A DNA stretch of 42,843 nt, from positions 1 to 42,843 of the IMG/VR virus record IMGVR_UViG_3300023116_003900; one strand, given 5' to 3'. Made by a program: the position numbers and the translations under genes. The notes beneath the pieces were generated by a model, which saw only the letters and a program-made list of their open reading frames with translations, was not told the DNA's origin and did not search any database. Position 1 is the first letter of the stretch. Each line of letters begins with the position of its first letter. Of this stretch, positions 21,310-37,240 are shown piece by piece. Source of the stretch: a virus.

Positions 21310-22170
21310 ATGAACTTTGAACTGTATCATGATCCCATAAAGAAACACCCTTATCTCTTCACCTACGGCACAGAAGTCGATTGGAGAGGTACTCCTGGAG
21401 TTGGGGATATACTTTTTGGATTAAATGCAGTTCATATGATGGTTCATCTAATACGCAAGCGCCGTCCGCTTGAGCAGATGACGATGAATGTTTTTTGGGA
21501 ACATCCTGAAGATCACTTACATCACTTCGAAGATCCTGAAACAATCATCGAGCGAGCCGAGTATCTTCATAATTTTTATTATGACAAAGACGCAGTGAAG
21601 ATGAACCACATCTTTGACTCCACTGACCACGAGATCACTAAACTACGGCACAGAGGATTTCAACGACAACGAAGTCCTCTCGCTGTTCTTGACGGTATCC
21701 CTTCTTGGGTATTTCGCGAAGATGTTTGGACTGATCCAGTAGAAAACAAAGTTGTCTTTTGGCGACCTTTGTTCAACGCAGAAACTCCACGTGGCTGGAA
21801 ACGAACTTTCTTTCCCGAAGACTGGGAAAAGATTATTCACATTTTAGAAATGAAAGGCTTTAATCTCGTTGAACTAACGTATCGCACGCCAGTTCGTGAA
21901 GCCATGTATCACATACGCACCTGTCGTTTCTGTATCTTCTATGATGGTATGTGGCAGTACATTGCTCGCAATCTGTGCAAGCCTGTCATTGCGCTTGGTG
22001 ATAGCGGCATACTTGAAGTACACAATCCACAGGGCGTTCACTTTCTCAAGCCACACATGCCAGAGAATGATTTTTACGCATACATAGATAAACTTCCACA
22101 CATACTTTCGCACATGGATCAGAGAGCGAATCGTTATAAAAAGAAAATATTAGGTGAAATATATGGGTGA
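21310..22170 (+). CDS. Glycosyltransferase-like protein (GT9-like)
   Basis: 286 aa. GVGDILFGLNAVHMM (about 30-44) resembles the N-terminal donor/acceptor loop of ADP-heptose-type GT-B enzymes. Near the C-terminus, CRFCIFYDGMWQYIARNLC with PVIALGDSG corresponds to the nucleotide-sugar side of that fold. First gene of the long sugar operon. The assignment rests on pattern only and could be another GT-B family. Confidence 0.5.
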   Translation: MNFELYHDPIKKHPYLFTYGTEVDWRGTPGVGDILFGLNAVHMMVHLIRKRRPLEQMTMNVFWEHPEDHLHHFEDPETIIERAEYLHNFYYDKDAVKMNHIFDSTDHEITKLRHRGFQRQRSPLAVLDGIPSWVFREDVWTDPVENKVVFWRPLFNAETPRGWKRTFFPEDWEKIIHILEMKGFNLVELTYRTPVREAMYHIRTCRFCIFYDGMWQYIARNLCKPVIALGDSGILEVHNPQGVHFLKPHMPENDFYAYIDKLPHILSHMDQRANRYKKKILGEIYG

Positions 22171-23134
22171 CATAAAGATTGACAGAGCAGTGATTGAAGT
22201 ACAAGGAGCGTGTAACTTTGATTGCTCAATGTGTCCTCAAGACAAACGTGAAGGTGGTCGTCATAAAGACTTTCTTACAAAGATGTCGTTGCTTGAGTTT
22301 GAGACCTACGTAGCAGACTGTAAGAAACACGGACTGCGCGTTGTCAATCTAGATGGCTCAGGTGAAGCAACTATCAATCGCAATCTGCCCGAGTACATTA
22401 AGATTGTCAAGAAGTATGACGCACAAGCAGTAATCTTCTCTAACGGATTTAAAATGCATGGTCAGTTCATGCGTGACTGTGTAGATGCTGGTCTTGACTT
22501 TTTTCGATTCTCTTTCATTGGTTCTACGCCCGAAGACTATGACAAGTGGATGTACAACACACGCGGTAGTAACTATCATTTGATCAAGAAGAACATCAAA
22601 GAGATGATTGACTACGTGAAAGAATCTGGTTCAAGTTGTGTTGTCGAGACGTACCATCTAATTACAGACAATGCAAACCTCGAGACAGAGTTAGAAAATT
22701 ACAAGAAGATTGTCGAAGAGCTTGGTTGCAAAACAGAAATCTGGAAGATGCATAACTGGTCTGGTGCATGGGACATCGGAGAGAATGCTCGCAAAGGAAA
22801 GGTGAAGACTTGTGGAAGACCTTTTAGTCCCGATGTCGTTATTCGTGCTGGCGGTCTTGACGGTAAAAGAGGTGCTGTTCATCCTTGCTGTCAAGTACTG
22901 GGACGAGACGAAGAAGCCGTTCTCGGACACTGTTCAGAAAACACAATCGAAGAAGTCATCCGAGGACCAGAGTACTCGGCCCTAAGAGAGTCACATCGTA
23001 CGGGTGACTATCCAGACTACTGCAAGAATTGTGATTTTCTTCTTGACGATCCTGAAGTATTAGTGTATACTAACAATGATCGCGACTTACACAAAATGAT
23101 TGGAACAGAGTTCAACTTAGATGATTACCGATAA
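22163..23134 (+). CDS. Radical SAM protein with SPASM-like C-terminus
   Basis: 323 aa from ATG 22163 (AGGTG before it). C17-x3-C21-x2-C24 (CNFDCSMC) binds the radical SAM cluster. DGSGEATINRNL and SFIGSTPEDYDKW are core-barrel blocks. The C-terminus has extra cysteines (KTCGRPFSP, HPCCQVL, DYCKNCDFL), which suggest auxiliary clusters of SPASM type. Such enzymes change peptides, sugars or nucleotides. Lying among glycosyltransferases, a sugar-directed reaction is plausible; the substrate is unknown. Confidence 0.85.
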   Translation: MGDIKIDRAVIEVQGACNFDCSMCPQDKREGGRHKDFLTKMSLLEFETYVADCKKHGLRVVNLDGSGEATINRNLPEYIKIVKKYDAQAVIFSNGFKMHGQFMRDCVDAGLDFFRFSFIGSTPEDYDKWMYNTRGSNYHLIKKNIKEMIDYVKESGSSCVVETYHLITDNANLETELENYKKIVEELGCKTEIWKMHNWSGAWDIGENARKGKVKTCGRPFSPDVVIRAGGLDGKRGAVHPCCQVLGRDEEAVLGHCSENTIEEVIRGPEYSALRESHRTGDYPDYCKNCDFLLDDPEVLVYTNNDRDLHKMIGTEFNLDDYR

Positions 23135-23744
23135 GCCAGAAGTATGGATGATTGCAATCACGGGTAATCCCATATCAGAATATTATAAAGAGTATTGCAC
23201 TCCCAGCTGGACCAAACACGGGTTCAAGGTCAATCACTTCGAAGCGAAGACGCCCAAAGACCTTGAGACAGAAGAGTGCAACTTTCTTCCGTTTCGAATG
23301 AAGCACAGCTATTCGCGTAATCTTGATGTAGAGTTTACTGAAACAGAAAAGGCTGTTTGGTATAGTCACTACTATGCATGGAAGAAATGCTGGGACGAAC
23401 AGACGCCTTTTATTGTTGCAGAACATGATGCGCTTCTTCGAAAGGACGTGGACCCTAAAGCGTATCTCACAAACATGACCTGTCTGTGTCATGACGAACG
23501 TATCAACAAAAACGGTGAAGTTTATGGTCGGGCTAAGTTAGCTGGCGGAGCGTACTATCTAACGCCTTATGCCGCAAGAGAACTGATGCGTATTCGTCAT
23601 CACAAAAAAATCATCTACAACTCTGATGCATGGATTCATAGAACGTGTGACAAGTTTGGTAGATGGAGAGAAGGTACGTGTATGCAGTATAAGAATGAAG
23701 ATGTAGGCGTAACAATTGAACACAATCATCCAGGTAAATCATGA
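23121..23744 (+). CDS. GT25-like glycosyltransferase, copy 1
   Basis: 207 aa. EKAVWYSHYYAWKKCWDE followed by FIVAEHDALL is the GT25 (LPS beta-galactosyltransferase type) signature, with the EHD acidic motif. GGAYYLTPYAARELM is the later conserved block. It overlaps the radical SAM gene by 14 nt and the next gene by ATGA. Paralogues at 33716 and 35205. Confidence 0.7.
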   Translation: MITDKPEVWMIAITGNPISEYYKEYCTPSWTKHGFKVNHFEAKTPKDLETEECNFLPFRMKHSYSRNLDVEFTETEKAVWYSHYYAWKKCWDEQTPFIVAEHDALLRKDVDPKAYLTNMTCLCHDERINKNGEVYGRAKLAGGAYYLTPYAARELMRIRHHKKIIYNSDAWIHRTCDKFGRWREGTCMQYKNEDVGVTIEHNHPGKS

Positions 23745-24532
23745 AAAGACTCATATATCAAGTTTGCTTAGGCAAAGCGAAAAACTCTGCTCTTTATTCG
23801 AAGTGCATTCAGTCAGTAGCAGAGTATTGTTGGAAGAATGAAATCGATCACATCGTACAAACTACGCCTAAATTAAAAATAGCGCCTGATCCGTTTATGT
23901 CGAATCGTAGTAAAGAAGCGACTGCGAATCATGGTGGCTTTCTTCCTATCTACGAGAAAGAAAATGCGTTTGATTTGCTAGATGAATATGATCAGATTGC
24001 AATCATTGATGCTGACATCTACATTCGCGAAGGCTCACCAAACATCTTCGATGACTTTGGTACTGAACACGCCTTTGGTGCAGTCTGTGAACGTGAGATG
24101 CCAATTCAAGATTGGTATAAACAAAAGATTGTTAACTACTCGCATATGCAGTATGCTCAACTGCAAAGCAACAGAACTGATTTCAAGCCCAACACGCTTG
24201 GATTTGAATTTTTTAATATGGGTATGATCTTACTGAACTGCGCTAAGTTCAAACCATATCTCAAGGGACAGACAGCAAAACAGTTTATCGAACGTGCTGA
24301 GTTTATGGATTTTGTGAACGGCAGAGGCGCATGGAAATGGAGTACTGACCAGACGTTACTTAACTTTTTTCTGAAGAAATACGATGTGCCTACAATGCAC
24401 ATGGACGCTAAATGGAACGGTCTATATACTGCACACAAAGACATTAAAGACTGTCATTTCGTTCACTTCTTTCTGAAAGACAAGCTACCAGATCGAGGTG
24501 AGAACGTCGAGGAGCTGATGGCGCAAATATGA
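23741..24532 (+). CDS. GT-A glycosyltransferase (GT8-like)
   Basis: 263 aa. IAIIDADIYI carries a DxD metal motif; FFNMGMILLN, STDQTLLNFFLKKY and CHFVHFF are further GT8-like blocks. Expected to use a nucleotide sugar with Mn or Mg. ATGA overlaps on both sides. Confidence 0.72.
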   Translation: MKRLIYQVCLGKAKNSALYSKCIQSVAEYCWKNEIDHIVQTTPKLKIAPDPFMSNRSKEATANHGGFLPIYEKENAFDLLDEYDQIAIIDADIYIREGSPNIFDDFGTEHAFGAVCEREMPIQDWYKQKIVNYSHMQYAQLQSNRTDFKPNTLGFEFFNMGMILLNCAKFKPYLKGQTAKQFIERAEFMDFVNGRGAWKWSTDQTLLNFFLKKYDVPTMHMDAKWNGLYTAHKDIKDCHFVHFFLKDKLPDRGENVEELMAQI

Positions 24533-25635
24533 GTTATGAAGAAAAGACTCAAAAGTACAGTACATGGGGTGACAAGTATCTACAACATACGGACGTGCTG
24601 TACTCGATTCAGTATGAAGAGAAATTCAAGCCTATCAACGTTCAGTTATCGCTGTGCGAAATCTGTGATAGCGACTGCCCGTTCTGTTCTGTTGCGGCTC
24701 GTCCACTAAAAAGTTACATCCCATGGCCTAAGTTGGTCAAGATGATGGAAGACTTTAAGACACTCGGCGCTAAAGCAGTTGAGATCACCGGTGGTGGTAA
24801 TCCTATGCTGTATCGTGACAAAGAGCATAAGAAGAATATCACAGACGTAGTAGAGTTATGCGGTCAACTTGGCTTTGATGTGGGTATCATTACCAACAGC
24901 GAAAACATCGAGCGACATCTTAATGAGCGAGCGTTCAAGTGGCTCAACTGGATTCGAATCAGTCTGATTAAACTTGACGAAGGTAAGAATCCCGAAGATT
25001 ATGATTTCGGATCATTCCCTCGTGATAAGATCGGTCTGTCGTATATTATTTACGACGGCACTGGCGGTGTACCTGACGAACTGTCTCGCACAAAGAAGCC
25101 GTATATTGGCACTACGAAAGAGTCGATTCAAAAGATTGCTCGACTGATCGAACTAAATCCCGAAGTTAAGTTCTGTCGTATCGCAGGCAATGCGTTGGTT
25201 GATGGCTATCAGACAGAGATTCAGAACAAGTGGCGACCTGTGATCGAAGAGATCGACAGTCTGTCAAAGTTTTTTATCAAAGACATCTGGGACGCAACAC
25301 GACCTTTCGAAGAGGGCTGTTACGTTGGCTTGACTCGACCATATATCGCACCACATCCAGATGGCGGTGATTATCAAGTGTATATGTGCACGAGTCACGT
25401 GTTAGAAGATCGTACGTACAAGCTGGAATTTTCGCTTGGTAGTATTGACAACGTAGTCGAAATATGGGATAATGCTAATCTGAAGTACTCTATGAATGGA
25501 TATCCGTATGAAGTAAGAGACAACAAAGGCAAGTGTTGGGATAAGGCTTGCGGTACTTGTTTGTATTACAACAACAATCGGTTGCTTCATACAGTAGCAC
25601 AACGAATGGACCTCGACGATAGGAATTTTGCATAA
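24529..25635 (+). CDS. Radical SAM protein 2
   Basis: 368 aa. C46-x3-C50-x2-C53 (CDSDCPFC) is the cluster motif, with another cysteine at 43. EITGGGNPMLYRD matches the SAM-binding glycine block. C-terminal cysteines (GKCWDKACGTCLYY) suggest a second cluster. It is not close to the one at 22163 beyond the fold. Position between a GT8-like gene and a methyltransferase again suggests a sugar or nucleotide substrate, as inference. Confidence 0.82.
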   Translation: MSYEEKTQKYSTWGDKYLQHTDVLYSIQYEEKFKPINVQLSLCEICDSDCPFCSVAARPLKSYIPWPKLVKMMEDFKTLGAKAVEITGGGNPMLYRDKEHKKNITDVVELCGQLGFDVGIITNSENIERHLNERAFKWLNWIRISLIKLDEGKNPEDYDFGSFPRDKIGLSYIIYDGTGGVPDELSRTKKPYIGTTKESIQKIARLIELNPEVKFCRIAGNALVDGYQTEIQNKWRPVIEEIDSLSKFFIKDIWDATRPFEEGCYVGLTRPYIAPHPDGGDYQVYMCTSHVLEDRTYKLEFSLGSIDNVVEIWDNANLKYSMNGYPYEVRDNKGKCWDKACGTCLYYNNNRLLHTVAQRMDLDDRNFA

Positions 25636-26214
25636 ATGTTTGACAAGCATTATTATGAAAGCAACAACTACACCAACTACTTAGATCGACAAGATCGCTA
25701 CATTCGCCTCGCAGAAGAGGTCAGCGACTTTCTAAGTAAGATGAACCTACTACAAGAGCCAGTGCTTGACTTTGGCTGTGCAGTGGGTTTTTTGCTTAAG
25801 GGACTTGAAGGACGAAATCTAGATTGTTATGGCGTAGACATTTCAGAGTGGGCACTAGAGAAAGCACGTGAGCGTGGTCATGACGTAAGAAGTGAAGTTG
25901 ACTGGCTTAAAAAGCATGGTGTTGTGTTTGGGCTCGACGTGTTCGAACACATGAACTATGACGATCTGGAAGCGTTCTTTAAAAAGATTAAGACAAAAGC
26001 AATTGTTTTTCGTATGCCTGTCTGTGCCAATCCAGGTGAAGACTATGTGCTAGAATGTTCTCGCGTTGATCCTACTCATGTAGTTCGCTGGACAAAGGCT
26101 ATGTGGCGTGAGTTTTTTCGTACGTTCGGTTTTCTCAGTGTCGAGTTAAATCTTTCTACTATATACAACAGCGAAGGTGTTTACTCTGGTATTGCATTGA
26201 GACATGAGTACTAA
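25636..26214 (+). CDS. Class I SAM-dependent methyltransferase
   Basis: 192 aa. VLDFGCAVGFLLKGL (about 43-57) is motif I, CYGVDISEWALEKA motif II, and GLDVFEHM motif IV-like. It resembles small-molecule or sugar O-/C-methyltransferases of polysaccharide clusters (Methyltransf_23 type). It starts directly after the previous stop. Confidence 0.78.
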   Translation: MFDKHYYESNNYTNYLDRQDRYIRLAEEVSDFLSKMNLLQEPVLDFGCAVGFLLKGLEGRNLDCYGVDISEWALEKARERGHDVRSEVDWLKKHGVVFGLDVFEHMNYDDLEAFFKKIKTKAIVFRMPVCANPGEDYVLECSRVDPTHVVRWTKAMWREFFRTFGFLSVELNLSTIYNSEGVYSGIALRHEY

Positions 26215-26746
26215 CTATAAAATAGAGCAACTGATCACTGAGGAAGAAAGAAAAGAACTTAGAAATTTATTTGACACACTTGATCCTCAACTTGCTCATC
26301 AAGACTATAATCTTTTTGATGTAGACAAACGTGATCTACATCCTAAGCAGTGGAATGACACCATTCAAAAGATTTCTGCAAGAGGTGAAAGTAAAGGTCT
26401 TACTACTCATGCTCATTATTTTATAAAGTATGAAAAAGATGCGTTTACCAGAATACACACAGACGATGATAAAGTCATAAAATTAACAATCATCACCATG
26501 ATAGAAACAAAAGATTTAATTGGTGGTGGTAGTTTGATTTATGATAAATACAATAGGAAGCCGAGACCCGCATTTAAATATGCGAAAAGAACCGGTAATG
26601 GTCACGGTCCATATGGAAGAGACATTATACCGGTAATCGTAGAAACAAAGGATGGTGAATCGATGATCTACGACGGCAAAACTCTGCACGGTGTTACGCA
26701 GGTTCAACAAGGACATAGACTAGTATTAGTGAGTTGGTTTAAATGA
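26204..26746 (+). CDS. 2OG-Fe(II) oxygenase, prolyl-hydroxylase type
   Basis: 180 aa. H85-x-D87, H162 and R172 form the iron triad and the 2-oxoglutarate Arg of the P4H-like family; GGGSLIYD and GESMIYDGKTLHGV are adjacent strands. It would hydroxylate a protein side chain, lipid or sugar. It is not a TET/JBP enzyme by motif, so it does not by itself supply hydroxymethyl bases. Overlaps neighbours. Confidence 0.8.
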   Translation: MSTNYKIEQLITEEERKELRNLFDTLDPQLAHQDYNLFDVDKRDLHPKQWNDTIQKISARGESKGLTTHAHYFIKYEKDAFTRIHTDDDKVIKLTIITMIETKDLIGGGSLIYDKYNRKPRPAFKYAKRTGNGHGPYGRDIIPVIVETKDGESMIYDGKTLHGVTQVQQGHRLVLVSWFK

Positions 26747-27432
26747 CAGAGATTTTTGACTCAGACGGTTACGGAAATATTTTAGATTCCGACGGCAACA
26801 TCCAGTACATCTTTGAATCAGATGGCTGGTACATGTACGATTCGGACGGTCTTTTAGTTCTTGCACCTGTTCAAGATTTTGACTCTGGTGTGGTTCCGGC
26901 AGATTCTGCCGATAGCATTTTTGTAGAATGGCCTAAAACTTATATTGCACACAGAGGCAATCTTTACGGACCTAATCCTGAACTAGAGAATACAATTCCA
27001 CATATTGACTCTGCGATGGGTCAAGGATTTCACGTTGAGGTTGATGTTTGGAATATCAACGGAACCATGGTTCTGGGTCACGATCAGCCAAGAGATAGTG
27101 ACATTCTTTCAAATTATGTCACAGACAACTTCTTTATCAATCGCTCAAATCGGCTGTTAATTCATTGTAAGAATGCCGAAGCTTTATGTCACATGATGGG
27201 TTTAACATCGACGCATGGTCCTGCATTTGAATATTTTTTCCACGATAGTGATGCTTATACATTAACATCACAGTCGAGTATCGTTGCATATCCTAATAAA
27301 CCTTGTCCTCTCCACGTCGATGTAACTCCTACAACAATTGCGATGATGCCCGAAAGACACAACACAGACACCACAGACTTCAAAAAAATCTGTACAGACT
27401 ACCCAGTGAGATATCGCGACACCAGTTCTTAG
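26743..27432 (+). CDS. GDPD-like phosphodiesterase with N-terminal DSDG repeats
   Basis: 229 aa. Residues 1-50 carry four or five DSDG-type repeats spaced 8-10 residues apart. From about 66, YIAHRGNLYGPNPELENT, HVEVDVW and MVLGHD are the glycerophosphodiester phosphodiesterase core (HRG, ENT, ExD, HD). The usual later LxIEIK Glu is replaced by His (LLIHCK), and the domain is shorter than normal, so the reaction may differ. The repeat part resembles calcium loops or tail-fibre-like linkers. Phosphate-linked glycan removal or transfer is possible. Confidence 0.68.
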   Translation: MTEIFDSDGYGNILDSDGNIQYIFESDGWYMYDSDGLLVLAPVQDFDSGVVPADSADSIFVEWPKTYIAHRGNLYGPNPELENTIPHIDSAMGQGFHVEVDVWNINGTMVLGHDQPRDSDILSNYVTDNFFINRSNRLLIHCKNAEALCHMMGLTSTHGPAFEYFFHDSDAYTLTSQSSIVAYPNKPCPLHVDVTPTTIAMMPERHNTDTTDFKKICTDYPVRYRDTSS

Positions 27433-27434
27433 AC

Positions 27435-28796
27435 ATGATAAAGCTTATATTATTTGATCTTGATGGAGTATTAATCGACGCTAAAGACATTCATTACCGA
27501 ACGCTAAATGATGCGCTCGGTAGTGTTGGCGACTACACCATCACGCCCGAAGAGCATCTTAACATCTATGACGGTCACAAGACACGTCAGAAGTTGGACA
27601 TGCTCACCAAAAATAAAAACCTGCCTCTTGAAGCACATGACTTTGTTTATACCCGCAAGCAAGAACTTACGCTAAACGAGATTCGGCTACTCAAGCAACA
27701 GTCACACATCGTAGAACTATTCCAAAGATTGGATGTAAATGGTTATAAAATTGGCGTCTGTTCTAACAGCATTCGCTCAACTGTACTAACAGCCCTAGCC
27801 AAGACTGATCTGATCGAGTATTGCTCTGTCATCATTTCAAATGAAGACGTAAAGAACAGCAAGCCTCATCCAGAGATGTACTGGAAGGCTATGTCGATGA
27901 TGAACTGTTTGCCCGAAGAGACGATTATTGTCGAAGACTCACCACCCGGACTGCTGGCGGCTGAACGTTCTAGAGCCAAATATATAAGAGTAACAGATCC
28001 GTCGCAAGTGACGGTCGAGAATATCATGCCTAAGATTAATGGAGAACCAATTGTGAACAAGTGGAAAGATGAAAAGTTGAACGTGCTGATTCCTATGGCG
28101 GGTGCGGGTTCTCGATTCGCTGAAGCAGGCTACACTTTTCCTAAGCCTTTGATTCAAGTTAACGACAAGCCTATGATTCAAGTTGTTGTAGAGAATCTTG
28201 GTCTTGATGCAAACTACATCTTTGTTGTGCAGAAGAGTCATCGTGAGCAGTACAATCTGGACACGATGCTTGGTCTCATCTCACCGAACTGCAAAGTTGT
28301 TGAAGTCGATGGTATCACAGAAGGTGCGGCATGTACTGCGCTACTTGCAAAAGAGTACATTGACAATGACGCGCCTCTGTTTTTTGCAAACAGCGACCAG
28401 TATGTTGAGTGGGATCCAGTCGAGTTTATGTACAAGATGCAAGAAACGCAAGCAGATGGCGGTATCGTCACGTTCAAAGCAACTCATCCCAAATGGTCGT
28501 TTGCTAAAGTAGATGACAAAGGCTTTGTGACTGAGGTTGCAGAGAAAAATCCTATCAGCGATAACGCAACAGTAGGCTACTACTATTGGAAACGTGGTGC
28601 TGACTTTGTAAAGTATGCAGAGCAGATGATCGAAAGAGATGTACGTGTTAACAACGAATTCTATGTCTGTCCAGTGTTTAATCAAGCCATCGAAGACTGC
28701 AAGAATATTCGTATTCATGAAGCAGAAAAGATGTGGGGACTTGGAACACCTGAAGACTTAGAGTACTATCTAAAGAACTTCGACAATGAGATTTGA
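27435..28796 (+). CDS. HAD phosphatase fused to sugar nucleotidyltransferase
   Basis: 453 aa from ATG 27435, 2 nt after the previous stop. Residues 1-190 are a beta-phosphoglucomutase-type HAD domain (FDLDGVL at 7-13, CSNSIRSTV, SKPHPEMYW, IVEDSPPGL). Residues about 215-453 are an NTP_transferase domain (PMAGAGSRFAEAGYTFPKPL, then FFANSDQYVEW). It would both remove or move a sugar phosphate and charge a sugar 1-phosphate as a nucleotide sugar. Such fusions occur in capsule clusters. This is the only evident nucleotide-sugar maker in the window besides the epimerase. Confidence 0.88.
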   Translation: MIKLILFDLDGVLIDAKDIHYRTLNDALGSVGDYTITPEEHLNIYDGHKTRQKLDMLTKNKNLPLEAHDFVYTRKQELTLNEIRLLKQQSHIVELFQRLDVNGYKIGVCSNSIRSTVLTALAKTDLIEYCSVIISNEDVKNSKPHPEMYWKAMSMMNCLPEETIIVEDSPPGLLAAERSRAKYIRVTDPSQVTVENIMPKINGEPIVNKWKDEKLNVLIPMAGAGSRFAEAGYTFPKPLIQVNDKPMIQVVVENLGLDANYIFVVQKSHREQYNLDTMLGLISPNCKVVEVDGITEGAACTALLAKEYIDNDAPLFFANSDQYVEWDPVEFMYKMQETQADGGIVTFKATHPKWSFAKVDDKGFVTEVAEKNPISDNATVGYYYWKRGADFVKYAEQMIERDVRVNNEFYVCPVFNQAIEDCKNIRIHEAEKMWGLGTPEDLEYYLKNFDNEI

Positions 28797-29448
28797 TGAG
28801 CCTAAAGACTGGGAGTTATATCCAGGCGATACTTTCTATCAGAAGTTTAAGAGTAGAGGCGAACTCTATTCGATGACTCTTCCTGACTGGGAGATTGCAG
28901 AGAAATATCTTGATCGCAAGCGAGGCTGTCTTGATATCGGTGGACACATTGGTACAACCGCATTGCGTTATGCAAACAACTTCGAACAAGTCTATTCGTT
29001 CGAACCTCTTTATCACGAGATAATGAATCGAAACCTGAGCCACGTCACTAACATCGAAGTATATCCTTATGCTGTTTCAGATGCAGACGAAGAGATGACA
29101 ATGATCATGCGCTCAGGTAATACTGGTCTGTCTTTAATTCTTACAGATGAAACACGGCACTATAAAAATAGATCGGGTTACAATCCTAAAGAAATCAAGA
29201 TGGAAACAAGAGTAGTAGACGATTACTATTTCGCAGAGATCGATTTCATTAAGATTGATACAGAAGGCTTTGTACTACGTCCTCTTAAGGGAATGCTACA
29301 TACACTTGAAGAGAACGATTGGCCTTTGCTTCAGATTGAATTTAATAATTTGAATCAGAACACAGCAGAGTGCTTTGCTCTGTTGAAAGATTTAAAATAC
29401 GAGCAAGTCGATCAGTTTCATGTAGATCATTTTTTTCGGCGAGTTTAA
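28786..29448 (+). CDS. FkbM-family methyltransferase
   Basis: 220 aa. CLDIGGHIGTTALRYANN (motif I), VYSFEPLYHEIMNRN (motif II), VYPYAVSD and FIKIDTEGFVLRPLKG are the FkbM signature. O-methylation of a sugar is the common role. Overlaps the fusion gene by 11 nt. Confidence 0.85.
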   Translation: MRFDEPKDWELYPGDTFYQKFKSRGELYSMTLPDWEIAEKYLDRKRGCLDIGGHIGTTALRYANNFEQVYSFEPLYHEIMNRNLSHVTNIEVYPYAVSDADEEMTMIMRSGNTGLSLILTDETRHYKNRSGYNPKEIKMETRVVDDYYFAEIDFIKIDTEGFVLRPLKGMLHTLEENDWPLLQIEFNNLNQNTAECFALLKDLKYEQVDQFHVDHFFRRV

Positions 29449-29450
29449 TC

Positions 29451-30191: not shown

Positions 30192-30871
30192 AGAAGATCA
30201 TACTACAACATTGGACAGGACCTCTGGGTGAACTAGAAGAGCGTTCAAAAGCAAACATCGAAGAGTATGCTAAGTTCTGCGGTGCAGACTATCAGTTGAT
30301 ATCTGGTAACGTGTTTAGAAAACATCTATCAGCACCATGCCAAAAGATGATAATGCTTGACCCGCAGTTTGATGAGTACGATATGGTCGTCATGATGGAC
30401 ATCGATATGTTCACTCGTAAGGGCATGACGAAGAACATCTTTACAGATGATACAGGCATTGGTCGTCACTTCGGCATTCAGCCTTCGTTACGTCAGAAAC
30501 TCTATCAGAGATTTCCCTTGCTCGGCGACACTCGATATCCGTATTGGGGTGGATCTATCTATCGTCTAGACAAAGACATTCGTAAGAAGCTTCGAATTCA
30601 TATGGTAGATTGGGAGATGGATCATTTTAATAACAACTACGAAGACGAAGGCATTATGCACCGTCTCGCAATCAAAGCAAATCTCAAAGAAACGCCAGAT
30701 GTCTATCTCGACGAAGACAAGTGGAATCGGTCGTCGTTCGAAGAGAATGTAAGTGACGGATATATAATCCACGTAAGGCGTAAGATGAAGAACACGCCTG
30801 GCAGACCATCGCCAAAGCAAGACAAGATTTTGAACTATAGAAAATTAGTGGAGAAGGGAATTCTAGAATGA
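30188..30871 (+). CDS. GT-A glycosyltransferase-like protein
   Basis: 227 aa. VVMMDIDMFTRKGM has a DxD motif; YWGGSIYRLDKDIRKK and NNNYEDEGIMHRLAIKA fit later GT-A blocks. Its start (IILQHWTG) parallels that of the protein at 31800 (VIYQYWDG), so the two look like old duplicates. ATGA overlaps on both sides. Confidence 0.62.
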   Translation: MKKIILQHWTGPLGELEERSKANIEEYAKFCGADYQLISGNVFRKHLSAPCQKMIMLDPQFDEYDMVVMMDIDMFTRKGMTKNIFTDDTGIGRHFGIQPSLRQKLYQRFPLLGDTRYPYWGGSIYRLDKDIRKKLRIHMVDWEMDHFNNNYEDEGIMHRLAIKANLKETPDVYLDEDKWNRSSFEENVSDGYIIHVRRKMKNTPGRPSPKQDKILNYRKLVEKGILE

Positions 30872-31803
30872 AAGTAGTGATTACAGGAATGGCAGGTTTT
30901 ATTGGCTTTCATACTGCCCTTCGATTTCAACAAGCTGGTTATGAAGTACAAGGCTTTGACAACTTCAATAGCTACTATGATCCTCAACTTAAGTACAAGA
31001 GAGTAGGTAAGTTAAACGTTGATCATGGAATTATTTGCCCGAACTGTGATCTGAAAAGAAAAGACGATTTTGCAGGCTGGCTAAAAAGAAGCAAGCCCGA
31101 TCTTGTAGTTCATCTCGGTGCCATGGCAGGCGTTCGATACTCTATGGAGAATCCACAAGAGTACATCGACAACAACGTAACAGGTACTCTGAATCTAATT
31201 CAAGCCTGCGAAGAAGCGGGTGTCGAAAACGTCATCTATGCTTCAACTTCTTGTGTGATGCACGGCAACGATTTACCATGGAAAGAAGATGACTATCTGT
31301 ATCAGCAGATCAATCCGTATGGCTATACGAAGTGCATCAACGAGTCGCAGTTTGCCATCTCTAAAATTCCCAATGCTGTCGGCATGAGATTCTTTACAGT
31401 CTATGGTCCGTGGGGTCGACCTGACATGGCGTTATTCGACTTTACAAAGAACATCCTTGCGGATAAAGAAATCACGCTATTTAACTACGGTGACATGAAG
31501 CGAGACTTTACATACATCGACGATATCGTACAGGGCATTTGGCTTGTGTCACAGAATATGACACCACGCGACATGTACAACATCGGCTATGGCAAGCAAG
31601 TCGAACTAGAAAGATTTGTAACAGCAATCGAAACGTCTCTGGGCAAGAAGGCTATTAAAGCGTATGGTCCGAAACATCCTGCTGATGCAACAGAGACTTG
31701 GAGCGACACAACGAAACTTCAGAAACTTGGTTACAATCCTTCTACGCCAATCGAAGAGGGCGTTGACAACTTTGTGAAATGGTATATGGAGCACTACTCG
31801 TGA
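30868..31803 (+). CDS. NAD-dependent sugar-nucleotide epimerase
   Basis: 311 aa. TGMAGFIGFH (6-15) is the Rossmann NAD loop; HLGAMAGVRYSMENP and a catalytic YGYTK, with STS upstream, match UDP-glucuronate 4-epimerase-type extended SDRs; RDFTYIDDIVQGI is the later signature. It would provide an epimerised UDP- or GDP-sugar for the neighbouring transferases. Confidence 0.9.
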   Translation: MKVVITGMAGFIGFHTALRFQQAGYEVQGFDNFNSYYDPQLKYKRVGKLNVDHGIICPNCDLKRKDDFAGWLKRSKPDLVVHLGAMAGVRYSMENPQEYIDNNVTGTLNLIQACEEAGVENVIYASTSCVMHGNDLPWKEDDYLYQQINPYGYTKCINESQFAISKIPNAVGMRFFTVYGPWGRPDMALFDFTKNILADKEITLFNYGDMKRDFTYIDDIVQGIWLVSQNMTPRDMYNIGYGKQVELERFVTAIETSLGKKAIKAYGPKHPADATETWSDTTKLQKLGYNPSTPIEEGVDNFVKWYMEHYS

Positions 31804-32645
31804 AGAATGTAATTTATCAGTATTGGGACGGCAACGTTCGACCTAGCGCACAGTACGGCTCTGACTGTATGCGTGAATATGCAGAGCGAATTGGTGCTGA
31901 GTATGTGTTCGATAGAAATGCACAGTTCGGTAAGAAGTATGGATTAGGAAGAGTAACCCCTTATTATGGATGTTTTAAGCCCGTCTTCGACGACAAATAT
32001 CTTGATTACGATAATGTTCTGTTTTGCGATACTGATATATTTCCAGTCGATGGACTAGAAGAGAGCGTTTTCGAATCATTTACTGGTGAACTGGGTATGG
32101 GTCAAGAGCCTTTACAGCCGCAGTATCGCTACGACAAAAAGTTGAACAAGCAGTGCAATTCGAAAACCGAAGAACACTGGGCTAAACTGGTGACAGAAAA
32201 GTACGGCTGTGATTTGCCACGCGACGATCAGAATCGTCTACTTGTATTCAACTCAGGCGTTGTGTTATACTCTAATGCAGGCTTACGCAAATGCCGTGAG
32301 CAGTTTAAGCCGTTTCAAGAATATGTGCAGTTAGTCGACCGGGATCCAATCTGTGGTGGTAAAGTGTATGGTACTGACCAAGGCTATCTACACGCAATGG
32401 CTATGTCGATGGACATTGATTTCGTTGAGTTAGATACAGAATGGAATAGATGCGTAACGTGGGATCCATATGACAACGGCAATTCATTTGCAAGAACAGC
32501 AGTTGATCCAAAAACAAAAAAGACTAAGTTTGTACATATTCAGATGAGAGGCGCAGACAATCAGTCTGATAAATGGCATTGGACTGTCGCGAATAAGCCT
32601 AAGTCTGAATGGACACAAATGCAAAATGGTACCATGATACGATGA
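31800..32645 (+). CDS. GT-A glycosyltransferase-like protein
   Basis: 281 aa from a GTG overlapping the epimerase stop (GTGA), chosen over an ATG 21 nt upstream because it fits the spacing of the whole operon. VLFCDTDIFPVDGL has the DxD motif; VFNSGVVLYSN and YGTDQGYLHAMA are GT8-type blocks. Donor and acceptor unknown. Confidence 0.65.
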   Translation: MKNVIYQYWDGNVRPSAQYGSDCMREYAERIGAEYVFDRNAQFGKKYGLGRVTPYYGCFKPVFDDKYLDYDNVLFCDTDIFPVDGLEESVFESFTGELGMGQEPLQPQYRYDKKLNKQCNSKTEEHWAKLVTEKYGCDLPRDDQNRLLVFNSGVVLYSNAGLRKCREQFKPFQEYVQLVDRDPICGGKVYGTDQGYLHAMAMSMDIDFVELDTEWNRCVTWDPYDNGNSFARTAVDPKTKKTKFVHIQMRGADNQSDKWHWTVANKPKSEWTQMQNGTMIR

Positions 32646-33205
32646 ATTTTTTTGAGTACGAAGACTACGACGATTATGTCAAGCATCAAAAGAAGTGGTA
32701 TGCGTTGAAGCTGGGCAAGATCGTATATGTCAAGTCTGACACCATTAAACAGATCGTAGAGAATAAGCCTTTTGCATCTAGTGTTCTGTGTCACGGTACT
32801 CGATCAGGTGAAGAACAACGTCTGTTTCAAGCACTAGTGCCCTCAGCGAAAGTTGTAGGCTCTGAAATTGGTGATGGCTGTGAGCAATTTCCTATGACTG
32901 TTCAATGGGACTTCAATAACAAGAATCCTGATTGGGTAGGAAAGTTTGATATCGTATACACGAATGCATTTGATCATTGCATCACTCCTGTCAAGACACT
33001 TAAAGTTTGGAGAGACCAGCTTACTCCGAGCGGCAGACTCTTTGTTGAATATGCCGAGAATCGTTCTAACGTTTCAGAATCAGATCCTATGGGTGCGACA
33101 AACGAAGAGGTGCGTGGCTTTATCAAAGAGGCTGGAATGAAGGTAGTCTTAGAGTTGACGAAAGATATTAAACATCGAGGTAGAGTCTTTGTCTGTGAGA
33201 AGTAA
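32642..33205 (+). CDS. Putative class I methyltransferase
   Basis: 187 aa from ATG 32642 (ATGA). SVLCHGTRSGEEQRLF and VVGSEIGDG occupy motifs I and II of a Rossmann methyltransferase; FDIVYTNAFDHCITP and LTPSGRLFVEY motifs IV and V. The glycine motif is degenerate (CHGTRSGEE), so the call is moderate. Confidence 0.6.
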   Translation: MNFFEYEDYDDYVKHQKKWYALKLGKIVYVKSDTIKQIVENKPFASSVLCHGTRSGEEQRLFQALVPSAKVVGSEIGDGCEQFPMTVQWDFNNKNPDWVGKFDIVYTNAFDHCITPVKTLKVWRDQLTPSGRLFVEYAENRSNVSESDPMGATNEEVRGFIKEAGMKVVLELTKDIKHRGRVFVCEK

Positions 33206-33719
33206 AATATTTTGTATAGGTCTGTCTCGTACTGGCACTACCAGCTTCAGTGACTTCATGGCTCGCTGTGGCTATAACATCTTACATTATCCAAATGAGA
33301 CGCAACTGTTCGGTGGATTTGGTGATGGTGCGAGCGACATACCCGTTGTACTGCACTACAAGAAACTTGACAAGATGTTTCCTAAGTCAAAGTTTATCTA
33401 CACGATTCGGGACAACTGGGCTGATGCTGTAGAGCCTTACTTCTTGCGCAAGAAAGGGCGTGTGAATCAGGCATCGGCTCAGTTAGAGATTCGAAGACAG
33501 GTATATGGTAGTGTTGACTGGAATCGTGAACTGTATACAAATGCGTATACTAAACACGATGAAGACGTACGAGAGTACTTCAAAGATCGTCCTGATGATC
33601 TGTTGATTCTTGATATCATTGGCGGTGATCCTGTAAGCAAAGTTACAGACTTTCTTGGTATTGAAACTAAACTAACAGAGTTCCCAAAATCTAATTCGCG
33701 AGAGAAAACTTGGAAATGA
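33195..33719 (+). CDS. Sulfotransferase-family protein
   Basis: 174 aa from GTG 33195. KIFCIGLSRTGTTSFSDFM (3-21) is the PAPS 5'-phosphosulfate loop, and KFIYTIRDNWADAV the 3'-phosphate region. It may add sulfate to a glycan, using host PAPS. Shorter than most sulfotransferases, and no clear catalytic His is identified. GTG and an alternative TTG at 33189 are both possible. Confidence 0.75.
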   Translation: MRSKIFCIGLSRTGTTSFSDFMARCGYNILHYPNETQLFGGFGDGASDIPVVLHYKKLDKMFPKSKFIYTIRDNWADAVEPYFLRKKGRVNQASAQLEIRRQVYGSVDWNRELYTNAYTKHDEDVREYFKDRPDDLLILDIIGGDPVSKVTDFLGIETKLTEFPKSNSREKTWK

Positions 33720-34420
33720 ATGACGCATATGTGATCACATTACAAGACAATGAGATGTCGAATGAGTGTGCAGACAAGCTTATCGAATCTTCCCGATCGG
33801 TAAATAACGAGTTCGAAATCACCAAGTTCGATGCAATCGTTCCCGAGCGGGTAATTTCTTTAATGCAGTTGCACAATCTCAAGTGGAACTATCCTATGTC
33901 AGAGCCTGTGCTTGACATGCAGACAGGACTGTGGAAGCATCCCTATGTTACTGCTGTGACTGAAAAGCGCATTGCTTGTTTTCTGTCTCACTATCTTCTG
34001 TGGCAAAAGTGTGCGAAGGGTAAAGAAGGTATGTTCATCTTCGAACATGATGCAGAGTTTATCGAGCGAGTAGACGTGGCTCTGCTAAATCAAAGTTCTT
34101 TTGATATCATTGCATTGAACGATCCACGAGGTGCAACTCGTAAGTCTTCTGAATACTATCAGGCTGTCAAACTAAAACTGCCCGAGAAAGTTGTGCCTGT
34201 GCCCAAGATCGATCAAGATCAGATTCCTCAAGGTCTGCCTGGCAACTCTGCATACTTTATTAAGCCAGAAGGTGCTGTCAAACTGCTCCGTCTAGTCAAT
34301 GAGTACGGCGCTTGGCCTAATGATGCAATTATGTGCCGCCAGCTAATGCCTAAGAAACTAGGCATTGTTACAATGTTCAATACAAAAGTGCAAGGCGTTG
34401 AATCGACTACAACGTTATGA
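33716..34420 (+). CDS. GT25-like glycosyltransferase, copy 2
   Basis: 234 aa from ATG 33716 (ATGA). EKRIACFLSHYLLWQKC and FIFEHDAEFIE are the GT25 blocks; GNSAYFIKPEGAVKLL is the third. Paralogue of the proteins at 23121 and 35205. Acts on a nucleotide sugar; acceptor unknown. Confidence 0.72.
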   Translation: MNDAYVITLQDNEMSNECADKLIESSRSVNNEFEITKFDAIVPERVISLMQLHNLKWNYPMSEPVLDMQTGLWKHPYVTAVTEKRIACFLSHYLLWQKCAKGKEGMFIFEHDAEFIERVDVALLNQSSFDIIALNDPRGATRKSSEYYQAVKLKLPEKVVPVPKIDQDQIPQGLPGNSAYFIKPEGAVKLLRLVNEYGAWPNDAIMCRQLMPKKLGIVTMFNTKVQGVESTTTL

Positions 34421-35208
34421 AAATAGGCGTCTTCGTTGCAGGTCAAATTCGAAATGATTTCGATGACGCGAGATACTGTCTCGATCTTTTAGAGAATGGA
34501 TTTCCCACCGCGGAGTTCAAGTATCTGGTATGGGACTATGAAGTTGAGCAACATCGAAGACTGCTGAACACGATCTCACTGGGTGATTTAGAAAAGATAT
34601 CTAACTTTGACATTCACTACAGTCCATATCTGGACAATCCTACCGCCAGCGAACATTATCAGTACAAGAAAAAACTGAAGAATCCAAACGAACGGCATCT
34701 GCATCAAACAAAGCAGATGCTACTGCACGATCATCTGATGCAGTTACACGGATCAAAGTACGATGTAGTTGTTCGTGTTCGATGGGACACCTGGGTTTCT
34801 CCTCTAATAGACTTTACATCGTATGCAAAAGAATGCTATAATAACTCCTGTGTAATTTCTATAAACACTCGATCTGATTATTGGAATGATCTTCTGCACA
34901 TAGGCGAAGATCACGGCACTCATGCGCCGCATATCAAACATAGAAGACCTGATGGCACGATTGACGCGCCGATATGCTTTGATATGTTTCAAGATCAAGG
35001 TCTGATACTGCATCGAAGCGACGATTGGAACAGCGAGTTTGTGCAGACACTACATAAAGAAAAGAAACTACTAGCCGCAGAGTTTGGCTGGTGGCAGATA
35101 TGCGTTGAAGGCACAAGTCATCATCGATGGAAACACTATGATGGTGGTGCAGGGCTTTCAAGGTCTGTTCGACAGGCTGATCGAGAAAAAGTGAGAATGA
35201 TATTTTGA
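34417..35208 (+). CDS. Glycosyltransferase-like protein, VRxRxDTW family, copy 2
   Basis: 263 aa. MKIGVFVAGQIRNDFDDA opens with a nucleotide-binding-like strand. HQTKQMLLHDHL, DVVVRVRWDTWVS and LLAAEFGWWQI match the protein at 29451 segment for segment. ATGA overlap upstream, TTGA overlap downstream. Confidence 0.52.
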   Translation: MKIGVFVAGQIRNDFDDARYCLDLLENGFPTAEFKYLVWDYEVEQHRRLLNTISLGDLEKISNFDIHYSPYLDNPTASEHYQYKKKLKNPNERHLHQTKQMLLHDHLMQLHGSKYDVVVRVRWDTWVSPLIDFTSYAKECYNNSCVISINTRSDYWNDLLHIGEDHGTHAPHIKHRRPDGTIDAPICFDMFQDQGLILHRSDDWNSEFVQTLHKEKKLLAAEFGWWQICVEGTSHHRWKHYDGGAGLSRSVRQADREKVRMIF

Positions 35209-35849
35209 AATCATATGTAATTACAATCATGTCTGAGCCAAGGTCTGTTGAGAGTGCGCAACGTTGCATTGACTCAATGCCTGACTACAACATTGAGATG
35301 TTTCCTGCAATCACACCAAAAGATAATCCGTTTAAGATTGCAGAGAAAAAAGGCATACCGATTGATCTATTCAAAGAGGGATACTCACGCATCGAAAATT
35401 GCGTATCAGCCTTTCTTTCTCACCACTCGCTATGGGAGAAGTGCTACGAAGAAAAGACTGAGTACCAAATCTTTGAGCATGATGCAGTATGTACTAATAA
35501 CATTCCAAAGTTTATACCGTATCAAGGATGTATCTCGCTAGGTGCTCCTAGCTATGGACGATTCCAAACGCCGATGAAAATTGGTGTTGGACCACTAACG
35601 AGTAAAAGATACTTTCCCGGTGCTCATGCTTATCGTCTTAAACCTGTTGGTGCTAAGACTTTATTACAACGAGCAAAGACAGATGCTAGACCTACTGACA
35701 TTTATTTGAATGCAGATTACTTCCCTTGGCTTGAGGAGTACTATCCTTGGCCAGTGGTTGTAAAAGAGTCTTTCACTACAATTCAACGACTAGAGGGCTG
35801 TGTTGCAAAGCACGGCTATAATGGTGGCTATGAAATCCTTACCGTCTAA
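35205..35849 (+). CDS. GT25-like glycosyltransferase, copy 3
   Basis: 214 aa with a TTG start overlapping the upstream TGA; the Met-Lys-Ser-Tyr start leads straight into the conserved VITIMSEPRS strand, so no later start fits. NCVSAFLSHHSLWEKC and YQIFEHDAVC are the GT25 motifs. Paralogue of the copies at 23121 and 33716. Confidence 0.7.
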   Translation: MKSYVITIMSEPRSVESAQRCIDSMPDYNIEMFPAITPKDNPFKIAEKKGIPIDLFKEGYSRIENCVSAFLSHHSLWEKCYEEKTEYQIFEHDAVCTNNIPKFIPYQGCISLGAPSYGRFQTPMKIGVGPLTSKRYFPGAHAYRLKPVGAKTLLQRAKTDARPTDIYLNADYFPWLEEYYPWPVVVKESFTTIQRLEGCVAKHGYNGGYEILTV

Positions 35850-36498
35850 TGAGCGATGTTTTATCACGGGATGTGATGAAAAAACTGAATGGCAACTTAA
35901 GTGGTTTTTAGAGAACTATCTTAAGCATAACAAGACGCCGATTGTATTTGCTGACTTTGGTGTTAGCGAAGAGATGCGAACTTGGATTTGGCAAGTGAGT
36001 GCCTTTGCTGATATCATTGAGATTCCGAAGCAACGTGTTGGCGGTTGGTTTTACAAGCCCATTGCAATGTTAGCCTCTCCTTGCACAGAGACATGCTGGA
36101 TTGATACTGACATTGAAGTGCTTGGTGATATGTCTGGTATCTTTAAGTATGTTGAAGACAACAAGATCGGCATGGTCGAAGACAAGCCTTGGAGTAAACG
36201 TCGAGGCGAAAAATGGCACAACTCTGGTGTCATAGCCATTCGTGGTAAGCCAGCGATGTTGCACAAATGGGCTAATGAGTGTCGTGGTAAACCAAACGTT
36301 GGAGATCAAGAGGTTCTACACAGTATCGTGAATCTAAATCCTCTGATGCGACTGACACACATCTCGGACATACCGAATATATACAATTGGCTTCGCATTC
36401 AAATTATCGACGGCGAAGATTCTCCTAACAAGCTGGCTATGCATTGGACTGGTCAGAAAGGCAATGACGTGATACGGAAGAAGATGTATAATGGGTAA
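35830..36498 (+). CDS. GT-A glycosyltransferase-like protein
   Basis: 222 aa from ATG 35830, within the end of the upstream gene; 35821 is another possible start. CWIDTDIEVLGDMSGIF has the DxD motif, WHNSGVIAIRG the NSG block and VGDQEVLH the later one, as in GT8-like enzymes. Continuous with the operon. Confidence 0.65.
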   Translation: MKSLPSNERCFITGCDEKTEWQLKWFLENYLKHNKTPIVFADFGVSEEMRTWIWQVSAFADIIEIPKQRVGGWFYKPIAMLASPCTETCWIDTDIEVLGDMSGIFKYVEDNKIGMVEDKPWSKRRGEKWHNSGVIAIRGKPAMLHKWANECRGKPNVGDQEVLHSIVNLNPLMRLTHISDIPNIYNWLRIQIIDGEDSPNKLAMHWTGQKGNDVIRKKMYNG

Positions 36499-37240
36499 AG
36501 TAATTCATGTATTAGGTAACGGCGACAAGGCTCACTACTACAATCGCGAGAAGCGCGAGGGTATGAAACTGCTGTGCAATATGCCGCCGTTTGAAATGGA
36601 TCCTAAAGAAGTCTACGCAACATGCATGGTTGACTTTAAGATGATGATGGCGCTGACTGAAGGGTCTATCAAGCTTGATCAGTACGAATGGGTGCTCGGT
36701 ACTCGTCCTCGTATTTGGATGTATGAGCGTAGCACGTTCTATCTAAAGTATGCGAGCCGAGTGAGAGAATTCTATACACACGTGCCTAAGTACGCTGGAA
36801 ATGCGACTAACTTTAACTGTGGTCACATGGCAGTTCACTATGCGGCGAATAAGCACAAAGCCGATGAGATCCACATGTACGGATTCGATACCATCTTCGA
36901 TTTCAACATGCGGAGTGTGACAGACTTGGTGCTGTCGAGTGATCGTGGCGATACTAACAACTATCGTTTGTTGAACAACTGGCGTCCGATCTGGAGAGAT
37001 ATCTTCCGTGAGTTCAAGAACACCAAGTTCGTTCTTCATCACAACCACGACAGCCTGAAGATTCCAAAGCTTGACAACGTTGAAGTGAAAGTGTATAATG
37101 ATAAGATGTCTGCAACTCAGAAACGTAGAGATGAAAGTGATATCAGCGATGGACGTGGCATGGAAGTGCCTATTAACACTGCACCGCTCAATCGTAAAGC
37201 GAGACGTGCACAAGAAGCAATTCAACGCAAGGCAAAATAA
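36491..37240 (+). CDS. Conserved phage protein, possibly sialyltransferase-fold
   Basis: 249 aa. VIHVLGNGDKAHYY at the start and FNCGHMAVHYAANKHKADE with IHMYGFDTIFD resemble GT42-type sialyltransferase and related folds. The basic tail (PLNRKARRAQEAIQRKAK) is likely disordered. I recall similar unnamed proteins in marine phages. Last gene of the sugar run; assignment is weak. Confidence 0.45.
   Translation: MGKVIHVLGNGDKAHYYNREKREGMKLLCNMPPFEMDPKEVYATCMVDFKMMMALTEGSIKLDQYEWVLGTRPRIWMYERSTFYLKYASRVREFYTHVPKYAGNATNFNCGHMAVHYAANKHKADEIHMYGFDTIFDFNMRSVTDLVLSSDRGDTNNYRLLNNWRPIWRDIFREFKNTKFVLHHNHDSLKIPKLDNVEVKVYNDKMSATQKRRDESDISDGRGMEVPINTAPLNRKARRAQEAIQRKAK

Follow-up and report, generated by a model that had tools for sequence, protein, structure and literature searches.

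The window analysed here, a 42.8-kb IMG/VR record (42,843 nucleotides) that probably represents part of a roughly 150-kb genome, carries an island of 21 genes for sugar transfer and modification that encodes no predicted membrane protein. Across dozens of related phages, sequence comparison resolves this island into conserved anchors at its two ends and a swappable middle. We tentatively favour the reading that its enzymes decorate, in the cytoplasm, an acceptor that already exists, most likely the lipooligosaccharide core of the host, and so alter the receptor, with virion-protein glycosylation as a close rival.

Gene content and layout

As originally predicted, the run is unbroken over 16 kb: its 21 genes all lie on the + strand, packed into positions 21310–37240 with overlaps or gaps of 0–2 bases. 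The overlapping chain is wider than the island, extending from the lysozyme gene at 20669 to the bilin reductase gene at 40337. NrdA/B, PhoH and cytidyltransferase genes in the window, together with T4-type structural genes in the relative C48C1, identify the virus as a T4-like marine phage, and a spanin pair at 9307–10192 implies that the host has an outer membrane. The features are listed below, and genes are referred to by their start positions.

14461..16059, +, NodU/TobZ-type carbamoyltransferase, probable upstream pathway member (phrog_1601, E 3e-110)
16471..18243, +, second carbamoyltransferase, paralogue of 14461 (35% identity, blastp 9e-94; phrog_1601, E 4.5e-99)
20555..20562, +, late promoter-like TATAAATA, 114 bp 5' of the lysozyme gene that opens the polycistron (motif)
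20669..21130, +, lysozyme, opening gene of the overlapping run (phrog_13211/phrog_7)
21310..22170, +, GT-B glycosyltransferase with GT9/heptosyltransferase-like fold, left anchor (structure model)
22154..23134, +, radical SAM/SPASM enzyme, clade marker; ATG start possibly 22163 (PF04055, 8e-11; PF13186, 5e-8)
23121..23744, +, GT25 glycosyltransferase (PF01755, 1e-9)
23741..24532, +, GT8-type glycosyltransferase, DAD motif (PF01501, 1e-5)
24529..25635, +, second radical SAM enzyme (PF04055, 1e-7)
25445..25473, +, sigma-70 promoter TTGACA-17-GATAAT, 5' of 25636 (motif; similar place in several relatives)
25636..26214, +, SAM methyltransferase (PF13489, 6e-9)
26204..26746, +, 2-oxoglutarate/Fe(II) oxygenase-like; HxD, H and R present (phrog_61, 6e-6; PF09859, 2e-4, under the cut-off)
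26743..27432, +, glycerophosphodiester phosphodiesterase (GDPD)-like (phrog_34507, 1e-19; motif read by eye)
27435..28796, +, HAD (beta-phosphoglucomutase-like) and sugar-1-phosphate nucleotidyltransferase fusion (PF13419, 1e-31; PF00483, 3e-11; 4evw, 2e-18)
28786..29448, +, FkbM-type methyltransferase (PF05050, 9e-11)
29451..30191, +, paralogue of 34417 with conserved VRxRFD motif, possible transferase (24% identity, 2e-14)
30188..30871, +, GT-A-like transferase, DID motif (resembles 23741 and 31779)
30868..31803, +, nucleotide-sugar epimerase, probably UDP-uronic acid 4-epimerase (PF01370, 8e-50; 5u4q, 2e-74; 6zl6, 1e-40)
31779..32645, +, GT-A-like transferase, DTD motif, both Asp invariant in the family (resembles 23741)
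32609..33205, +, weak methyltransferase-like protein (PF13847, E 0.06, sole match)
33189..33719, +, sulfotransferase (PF17784, 2e-17)
33710..34420, +, GT25 glycosyltransferase (PF01755, 7e-16)
34417..35208, +, paralogue of 29451 (sequence similarity)
34813..34842, +, sigma-70-like promoter TTTACA-18-TATAAT (motif)
35205..35849, +, GT25 glycosyltransferase (PF01755, 8e-10)
35821..36498, +, GT8-like transferase, invariant DTD; ORF opens at 35800 (8bz4 profile match)
36491..37240, +, Maf/GT42 sialyltransferase-like fold, right anchor (structure model)
37071..37099, +, 12/12 sigma-70 promoter of the next, early unit (motif; also 12/12 in L041, L044 and L083)

Two starts in the mechanical ORF list, 27303 and 29370, should be regarded as too early, with 27435 and 29451 as the correct ones. 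The island genes are real, because their order is kept in relatives with substantial identity of the encoded proteins (about 80–98% in the closest relatives and 35–80% in farther ones). They form a dense cluster of nine likely glycosyltransferases, two radical SAM enzymes, a sugar nucleotidyltransferase and an epimerase, joined by methyltransferases, a sulfotransferase, a 2-oxoglutarate oxygenase and a GDPD-like protein. Profile searches back most of the activities first proposed, namely radical SAM chemistry, sugar transfer, methylation, nucleotidyl transfer, epimerisation and sulfation. Two others fared less evenly: for hydroxylation the profile match is weak, although the HxD...H...R residues are present, and the phosphodiesterase-like 26743 has no Pfam match but carries HRG...ENT...E.DV...HD, matches phrog_34507 and has homologues in cyanophage islands. 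The suggestion of capsule-like content lacking export and polymerisation genes holds, since the Pfam matches of the 21 proteins include no flippase, polymerase, ABC exporter or initiating transferase and no transmembrane segment is predicted in any of them; the island therefore lacks the exporter or polymerase and the membrane initiating transferase of a capsule or O-antigen cluster. The median pI of the transferases is mildly raised (7.4 versus 5.5–5.7).

Among the enzymes of the middle, 35821 matches the profile of glycosyltransferase 8bz4 best (E 0.001), followed by glycogenin and LARGE1 chains (E 0.07–0.2). Searches of Pfam and of the PDB gave no useful match for the 29451/34417 family, nor did the profile of the 31779/30188 family find anything useful among solved structures, and 23741 has no relative among annotated phages at E 1e-5. 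Collagen-type hydroxylation and glycosylation was considered because the GT25 and 2-oxoglutarate oxygenase proteins both match phrog_61; it was dropped, as Gly-X-Y repeats are absent from the window, the 152-kb relative G001 and C48C1.

Conserved ends, variable middle and promoters

At the left end, the model of 21310 (pLDDT 83) resembles TibC (Z 11.4 over 219 aa, 3.9 A), WaaC (Z 11.3) and WaaF (Z 11.2), with a Foldseek E of 1.2e-4, indicating a GT-B fold related to these three enzymes. Pfam searches returned no family up to E 0.5 and no GT9 profile match, and 21310 is GT9-like by predicted fold, not assigned as a GT9 member. All 58 loci have a 21310-like gene adjoining the radical SAM gene. 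The latter gene, 22154, encodes the invariant CxxxCxxC of radical SAM enzymes and five more invariant Cys residues towards the C terminus, as in SPASM proteins. In searches of viral sequences (356 viral relatives) and of GTDB, its homologues are confined to phage or phage-like contigs. Of the two GTDB matches, one is a fragment of 4 kb and the other a phage-like contig of 142 kb that had been placed in the bin of a Sphingobacteriales MAG; a cellular origin was accordingly rejected. Conserved to the same degree as terminase (71.5% each), 22154 emerges from these comparisons as a core gene of the phage clade. At the right end, the model of 36491 (pLDDT 85) aligns with Maf (5mu5; Z 11.3 over 170 aa, 3.8 A) and CstII (Z 10.3), beside a Foldseek search with nothing under 1e-3, not significant alone.

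The island keeps its position within a clade of marine T4-like phages, and 2.5 to 14.6 kb separate its two ends (37 loci). The survey of marine phages for the same order, proposed with the original prediction, found it largely retained in L005/L084, L083, L085 and L086, with conserved ends. Lysozyme is the 5' neighbour in 44 of 50 relatives, and spanins or a holin-like gene lie within the islands of relatives, so that lysis genes surround or enter it. In 48 of 50 relatives, a carbamoyltransferase gene precedes the radical SAM gene by no more than 9 kb; the pathway is therefore larger than first reported, and 14461 and 16471 probably belong to it, judging by this conserved neighbourhood. The islands of relatives also hold a GroES-like, a nuclease-like and a RuBisCO-like gene.

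The island has promoter motifs of both the early (sigma-70) and the late (TATAAATA) type, at conserved places. The late motif 5' of lysozyme recurs at the same place in L003–L005, and relatives have more copies of TATAAATA in their island region than expected (64 observed versus 18). This enrichment suggested purely late expression, an idea then weakened by the conserved sigma-70 promoters. On the right, the island is bounded by the consensus sigma-70 promoter at 37071, and the unit behind it comprises exonuclease, a DNA-type glycosyltransferase (TAGT), heme oxygenase and bilin reductase.

Possible acceptors of the sugars

Given the lack of transmembrane segments, flippase, polymerase, exporter and initiating transferase, the acceptor would have to be accessible from the cytoplasm. 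For its identity, the export route and the purpose, we infer the following. Phage and host would both supply nucleotide sugars, a UDP-uronic acid probably among them, and about nine soluble glycosyltransferases would add them stepwise to an acceptor already in the cytoplasm. Methylation, sulfation, oxidation and probably carbamoylation of the sugars would follow. Host lipid A-core (lipooligosaccharide) is the likeliest acceptor and could then be exported by host MsbA and Lpt, making phage export genes unnecessary. A changed or masked receptor may exclude rival phages while infection runs and may keep progeny virions from binding debris at lysis. GT9-like, GT25, GT8 and GT42-like enzymes are transferase families that build lipooligosaccharide cores, and a middle of such variable length is expected if the acceptor differs among host strains. 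The lysis-gene setting, the outer membrane of the host implied by the spanin pair, the combination of early and late promoters, the uncoupling from TAGT and, by analogy, the heptose genes in the comparable island of SynMITS9220M01 also count for this reading. Against it, the modelled anchor folds also resemble the protein glycosyltransferases TibC and Maf, the late promoters fit virion decoration equally well, the pI rise is only mild, and a radical SAM enzyme conserved throughout the clade would be easier to reconcile with a constant, phage-encoded acceptor than with a variable host one.

In the close rival reading, soluble enzymes would instead decorate structural proteins (fibres, baseplate or capsid) in the cytoplasm before assembly, for which an island without membrane or export genes would suffice. 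The late promoter motifs and the likeness of the anchors to TibC and Maf speak for it. Conservation of the radical SAM enzyme at the level of terminase suits a fixed phage acceptor, and there are precedents in chloroviruses (reviewed in PMC4691112) and in some mycobacteriophages (Freeman et al. 2023, as cited in PMC12619734). However, parts of the island are also under early sigma-70 promoters, the large differences in transferase repertoire among related phages are harder to fit with a fixed acceptor, and no collagen-like acceptor occurs in the three sequences searched for Gly-X-Y. In a related but unlikely scheme, 22154 and its GT-B partner 21310 would install an undescribed modification on a clade-wide acceptor, probably a virion protein, which the variable transferases extend into a strain-specific glycan; if true, a T4-like phage would possess an autonomous system for glycosylating proteins. 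Still less probable is that the middle genes are a loose auxiliary set, swapped at a hot spot and not serving one common product. Gene content does vary strongly, and GroES-like, spanin, nuclease-like and RuBisCO-like genes share the stretch in relatives, but nearly all 21 window genes encode carbohydrate or modification enzymes, the others being unassigned; neighbouring genes are never more than 2 bases apart, and the relatives named above preserve most of their order.

The original prediction had also considered a sugar on DNA, the island lengthening a sugar on modified cytosines that TAGT begins. TAGT (PF20691, 4.5e-47) does sit 1 kb 3' of the island, and C48C1 carries a TET-like gene. Nevertheless, TAGT lies outside the island in a separate unit and was found in just 2 of 15 large relatives with the radical SAM gene (some of the 15 are incomplete; the complete genome of C48C1 is one of the 13 without a TAGT match); its own 12/12 early promoter and its absence from most relatives make this product very improbable. 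Moreover, no thymidylate-synthase-type, TET or C5-methylase gene was detected in the TAGT-bearing G001, and the enzyme repertoire goes far beyond the needs of any known DNA glycan.

Comparison with known systems

Long sugar islands were already on record for T4-like marine phages, without a demonstrated product. The question of what they decorate is now narrowed to two testable answers, with the DNA hypothesis largely removed. No paper was found in a literature search on phage C48C1 or describing the full enzyme combination seen here. The claim that no named system has this set holds for the name, but islands of a comparable kind are annotated in cyanophages and have been described for pelagimyophages. 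The hypervariable host-recognition cluster of pelagimyophages, T4-like marine phages, combines glycosyltransferases with radical SAM cassettes and is interpreted, also by inference, as modifying the host O-chain (PMC7029224). That cluster adjoins tail fibre genes, whereas the island here lies between lysozyme/PhoH and exonuclease, and the similarity is weak (24% between the second radical SAM enzyme, 24529, and HTVC008M). Chloroviruses and mimiviruses likewise encode nucleotide-sugar and transferase genes that act independently of host secretion (PMC4691112), but they are eukaryotic viruses with experimentally shown capsid acceptors, and the likeness is one of description.

C48C1 (OQ984149, unclassified Kyanoviridae), the closest genome on deposit, shares the anchors and their order, with carbamoyltransferase, 21310-like, radical SAM (74%) and 36491-like (49%) genes; it differs in the short stretch of 2.9 kb that separates its anchors, in lacking TAGT and in its TET-like gene. 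The cyanomyovirus islands of Bellamy (158–182 kb), SynMITS9220M01 (148–170 kb) and S-CAM9 (146–156 kb) are also long overlapping same-strand runs of sugar genes in T4-like marine phages, and one or more of them share the carbamoyltransferase, GDPD-like, nucleotidyltransferase, radical SAM and methyltransferase families. The 27435 fusion is 56% identical to its HAD-fused S-CAM9 counterpart, and Bellamy and SynMITS9220M01 reach 45% over the nucleotidyltransferase part. In SynMITS9220M01, a distant homologue of 24529 is again followed by a methyltransferase gene and has a carbamoyltransferase gene just 5' of it. In contrast, these islands occupy another genome location, have no match to the 21310, 22154 and 36491 anchors save a weak radical SAM similarity, and in place of the GT25/GT8 set, to which they have no match, carry heptose or several epimerase genes. 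Related islands are thus known in outline from cyanophages, and the island described here is a striking variant of them.

Layout and enzyme content of the island

The record (IMG/VR virus, 42,843 bases) is 97% coding, with the chosen genes on the + strand throughout and no tRNA in the window. The original prediction of an unbroken run of about 21 genes at 21310-37240 is confirmed, as these 21 genes, the majority overlapping, are separated by gaps of no more than 2 bases; its limits were too narrow, however, and the real run extends from lysozyme at 20669 to the end of the bilin reductase at 40337. Two starts were too early in the mechanical ORF list, and 27435 is preferred over 27303 and 29451 over 29370. 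Activities were assigned mainly by profile searches, Pfam among them.

Island genes by start coordinate, + strand, assigned by profile search unless stated
22154, radical SAM/SPASM enzyme
23121, 33710 and 35205, GT25 glycosyltransferases
23741, GT8 glycosyltransferase
24529, radical SAM enzyme
25636, methyltransferase
26204, 2OG-oxygenase-like protein
26743, GDPD residues present (read directly off the sequence)
27435, HAD plus nucleotidyltransferase
28786, FkbM methyltransferase
29451 and 34417, paralogous pair (by sequence comparison)
30868, epimerase
33189, sulfotransferase

The Pfam search gave no strong match for 30188, 31779 and 35800, all of which contain DxD motifs. By sequence comparison both 30188 and 31779 resemble 23741, both aspartates of the motif are invariant in two protein family alignments (A7 and A8), and the family of 35800 has weak glycosyltransferase matches in profile searches. 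The solved structures nearest to epimerase 30868 are 5u4q (2e-74) and 6zl6 (1e-40); because the latter is a UDP-glucuronate 4-epimerase, a UDP-uronic acid is the likely donor. An annotated UDP-glucose dehydrogenase adjoins an epimerase of this kind in C48C1 (phage OQ984149, unclassified Kyanoviridae), and homologues of both enzymes are present in G001, a 152-kb relative, outside its island.

Structures of the left and right anchors, 21310 and 36491, were predicted from clade alignments, and the models are good (pLDDT 83 and 85). The 21310 model has a GT-B fold, closest to TibC, WaaC and WaaF (Z 11.2-11.4; Foldseek E 1.2e-4). For 36491, Foldseek gave no significant match among solved structures, and a second aligner ranked Maf (Z 11.3) and CstII (Z 10.3) at the top; its fold is also found in other phage proteins. 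CMP-sialic acid is the substrate of sialyltransferases, and related acids are linked to Maf enzymes.

Conserved edges and a variable middle

At least 356 relatives of 22154 are found in viral contigs, and the top 80 share at least 72% identity with it. GTDB genomes contribute only two, one on a phage-like contig of 142 kb and the other on a fragment of 4 kb. In every dereplicated locus long enough to judge (58 of 58), 21310 directly adjoins the radical SAM gene; of 50 loci, 48 have a carbamoyltransferase no more than 9 kb upstream of that gene and 44 have lysozyme upstream. In 37 loci with both ends, 2.5 to 14.6 kb (with a median of 4.1 kb) separate the radical SAM gene from 36491; the distance is 13.4 kb in the window, where 27435-33719 is an addition present in the closest group and partly in three other relatives (L080, L087 and L088). 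A comparison of C48C1 with G001 gives 71.5% identity for both the radical SAM enzyme and the large terminase, exceeding the values for the major head protein (65%) and DNA polymerase (55%); 21310 and 36491 are 34% and 47% identical. The conserved neighbourhood, these identities and the variable anchor spacing together indicate that the island combines a vertically inherited core with a fast-changing middle.

Several other genes were observed in the window and its relatives. A RuBisCO large-chain-like protein (PF00016, 5e-24) is encoded within the equivalent island of L095 (13658-14734), a phage-like contig of 142 kb that was assigned to the bin of a Sphingobacteriales MAG. A GroES-like co-chaperonin lies among glycosyltransferase genes in the relatives' island (L021:12075-12332), and a similar sequence occurs in L095. 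At 7476-7808 the window encodes a small membrane protein that carries an EF-hand-like motif; its homologues (up to 87% identity) directly precede the 21310 homologue in many relatives and lie behind a late promoter in some. Eight window proteins (1218, 1655, 3074, 4999, 5300, 5532, 8843 and 18276), with a cytidylyltransferase-like protein and a P-loop kinase among them, have an MKxFxxF-like N-terminal motif, which resembles the T4 capsid-targeting sequence, and may be packaged in the head.

Transcription and the neighbouring DNA-type glycosyltransferase

In 57 dereplicated relatives, the + strand around the radical SAM gene carries 64 copies of the late motif TATAAATA against 18.2 expected, and the - strand 23; because these loci are related, neither motif nor promoter counts are independent events. 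Of the 64 sites, 57 fall in the zone 15-130 bases ahead of an ORF, which makes up 15% of the bases. The motif stands ahead of sheath, tube and baseplate genes in C48C1, and at 20555 in the window, 114 bases ahead of lysozyme. Sigma-70 promoters of 11-12 matches number nine on the window's + strand (0.35 expected) and zero on its - strand. Predicted promoters lie partly within the island, notably at 25445 ahead of 25636, with a counterpart at a similar place in L005, L041, L080 and G001. Since both motif types serve the island, transcription in both the early and the late phase is probable.

At 37071, a 12/12 promoter heads a unit of exonuclease, TET-associated glycosyltransferase (TAGT), heme oxygenase and bilin reductase, and provides a natural right boundary for the island. 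For the last two genes (39173-40337), the top-ranked solved structure is that of PcyX, a phage enzyme (5owg, 3e-23). The TAGT (38229-39176; PF20691, 4.5e-47) is related to enzymes in T4-like phages of Aeromonas and Vibrio, and its family has been tied to DNA sugars in coliphages (PMC13390438). Of 15 large relatives carrying the radical SAM gene, just two yielded a TAGT; some of these records are incomplete, but the C48C1 genome is complete. Judged from this distribution, the TAGT is a neighbour of the island, not a partner, and DNA as the proposed destination of the island's sugar is not borne out. No thymidylate-synthase-type, TET or C5-methylase genes were detected in G001, which bears the TAGT. 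C48C1 contains a TET/JBP-like gene (49583-51001) and an annotated DNA methyltransferase at 33480, which suggests a separate DNA hypermodification route.

Candidate acceptors and comparable phage islands

The capsule-like content without export or polymerisation genes was correctly predicted: among the 21 island proteins there are no transmembrane segments, and nothing similar to an exporter, polymerase or lipid-linked initiator. For this reason, the sugars would have to be added onto an acceptor already accessible in the cytoplasm, for which lipid A-core, virion protein and DNA are candidates. Lipooligosaccharide cores are built by a set of GT9-like, GT25, GT8 and GT42-like enzymes. Because the island's glycosyltransferases suit such a core, its repertoire shifts fast and lysis genes are interleaved with it, we tentatively favour an alteration of the host core by island enzymes that would remodel the receptor; the results themselves cover gene content, conservation and promoter motifs. 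Glycosylation of the virion is a slightly less probable destination, and given the probable early and late transcription, the choice between these two destinations cannot be made from timing alone.

In pelagimyophages, a hypervariable region of transferases and radical SAM cassettes has been read as O-chain modification (PMC7029224). Comparable islands are annotated in the cyanophages Bellamy (about 24 kb), SynMITS9220M01 (heptose genes included) and S-CAM9, and share a nucleotidyltransferase, a GDPD-like protein and a carbamoyltransferase with the window; SynMITS9220M01 also keeps the window's order of radical SAM then methyltransferase. Relative to these phage islands, that of the window has anchors and a genome position of its own.
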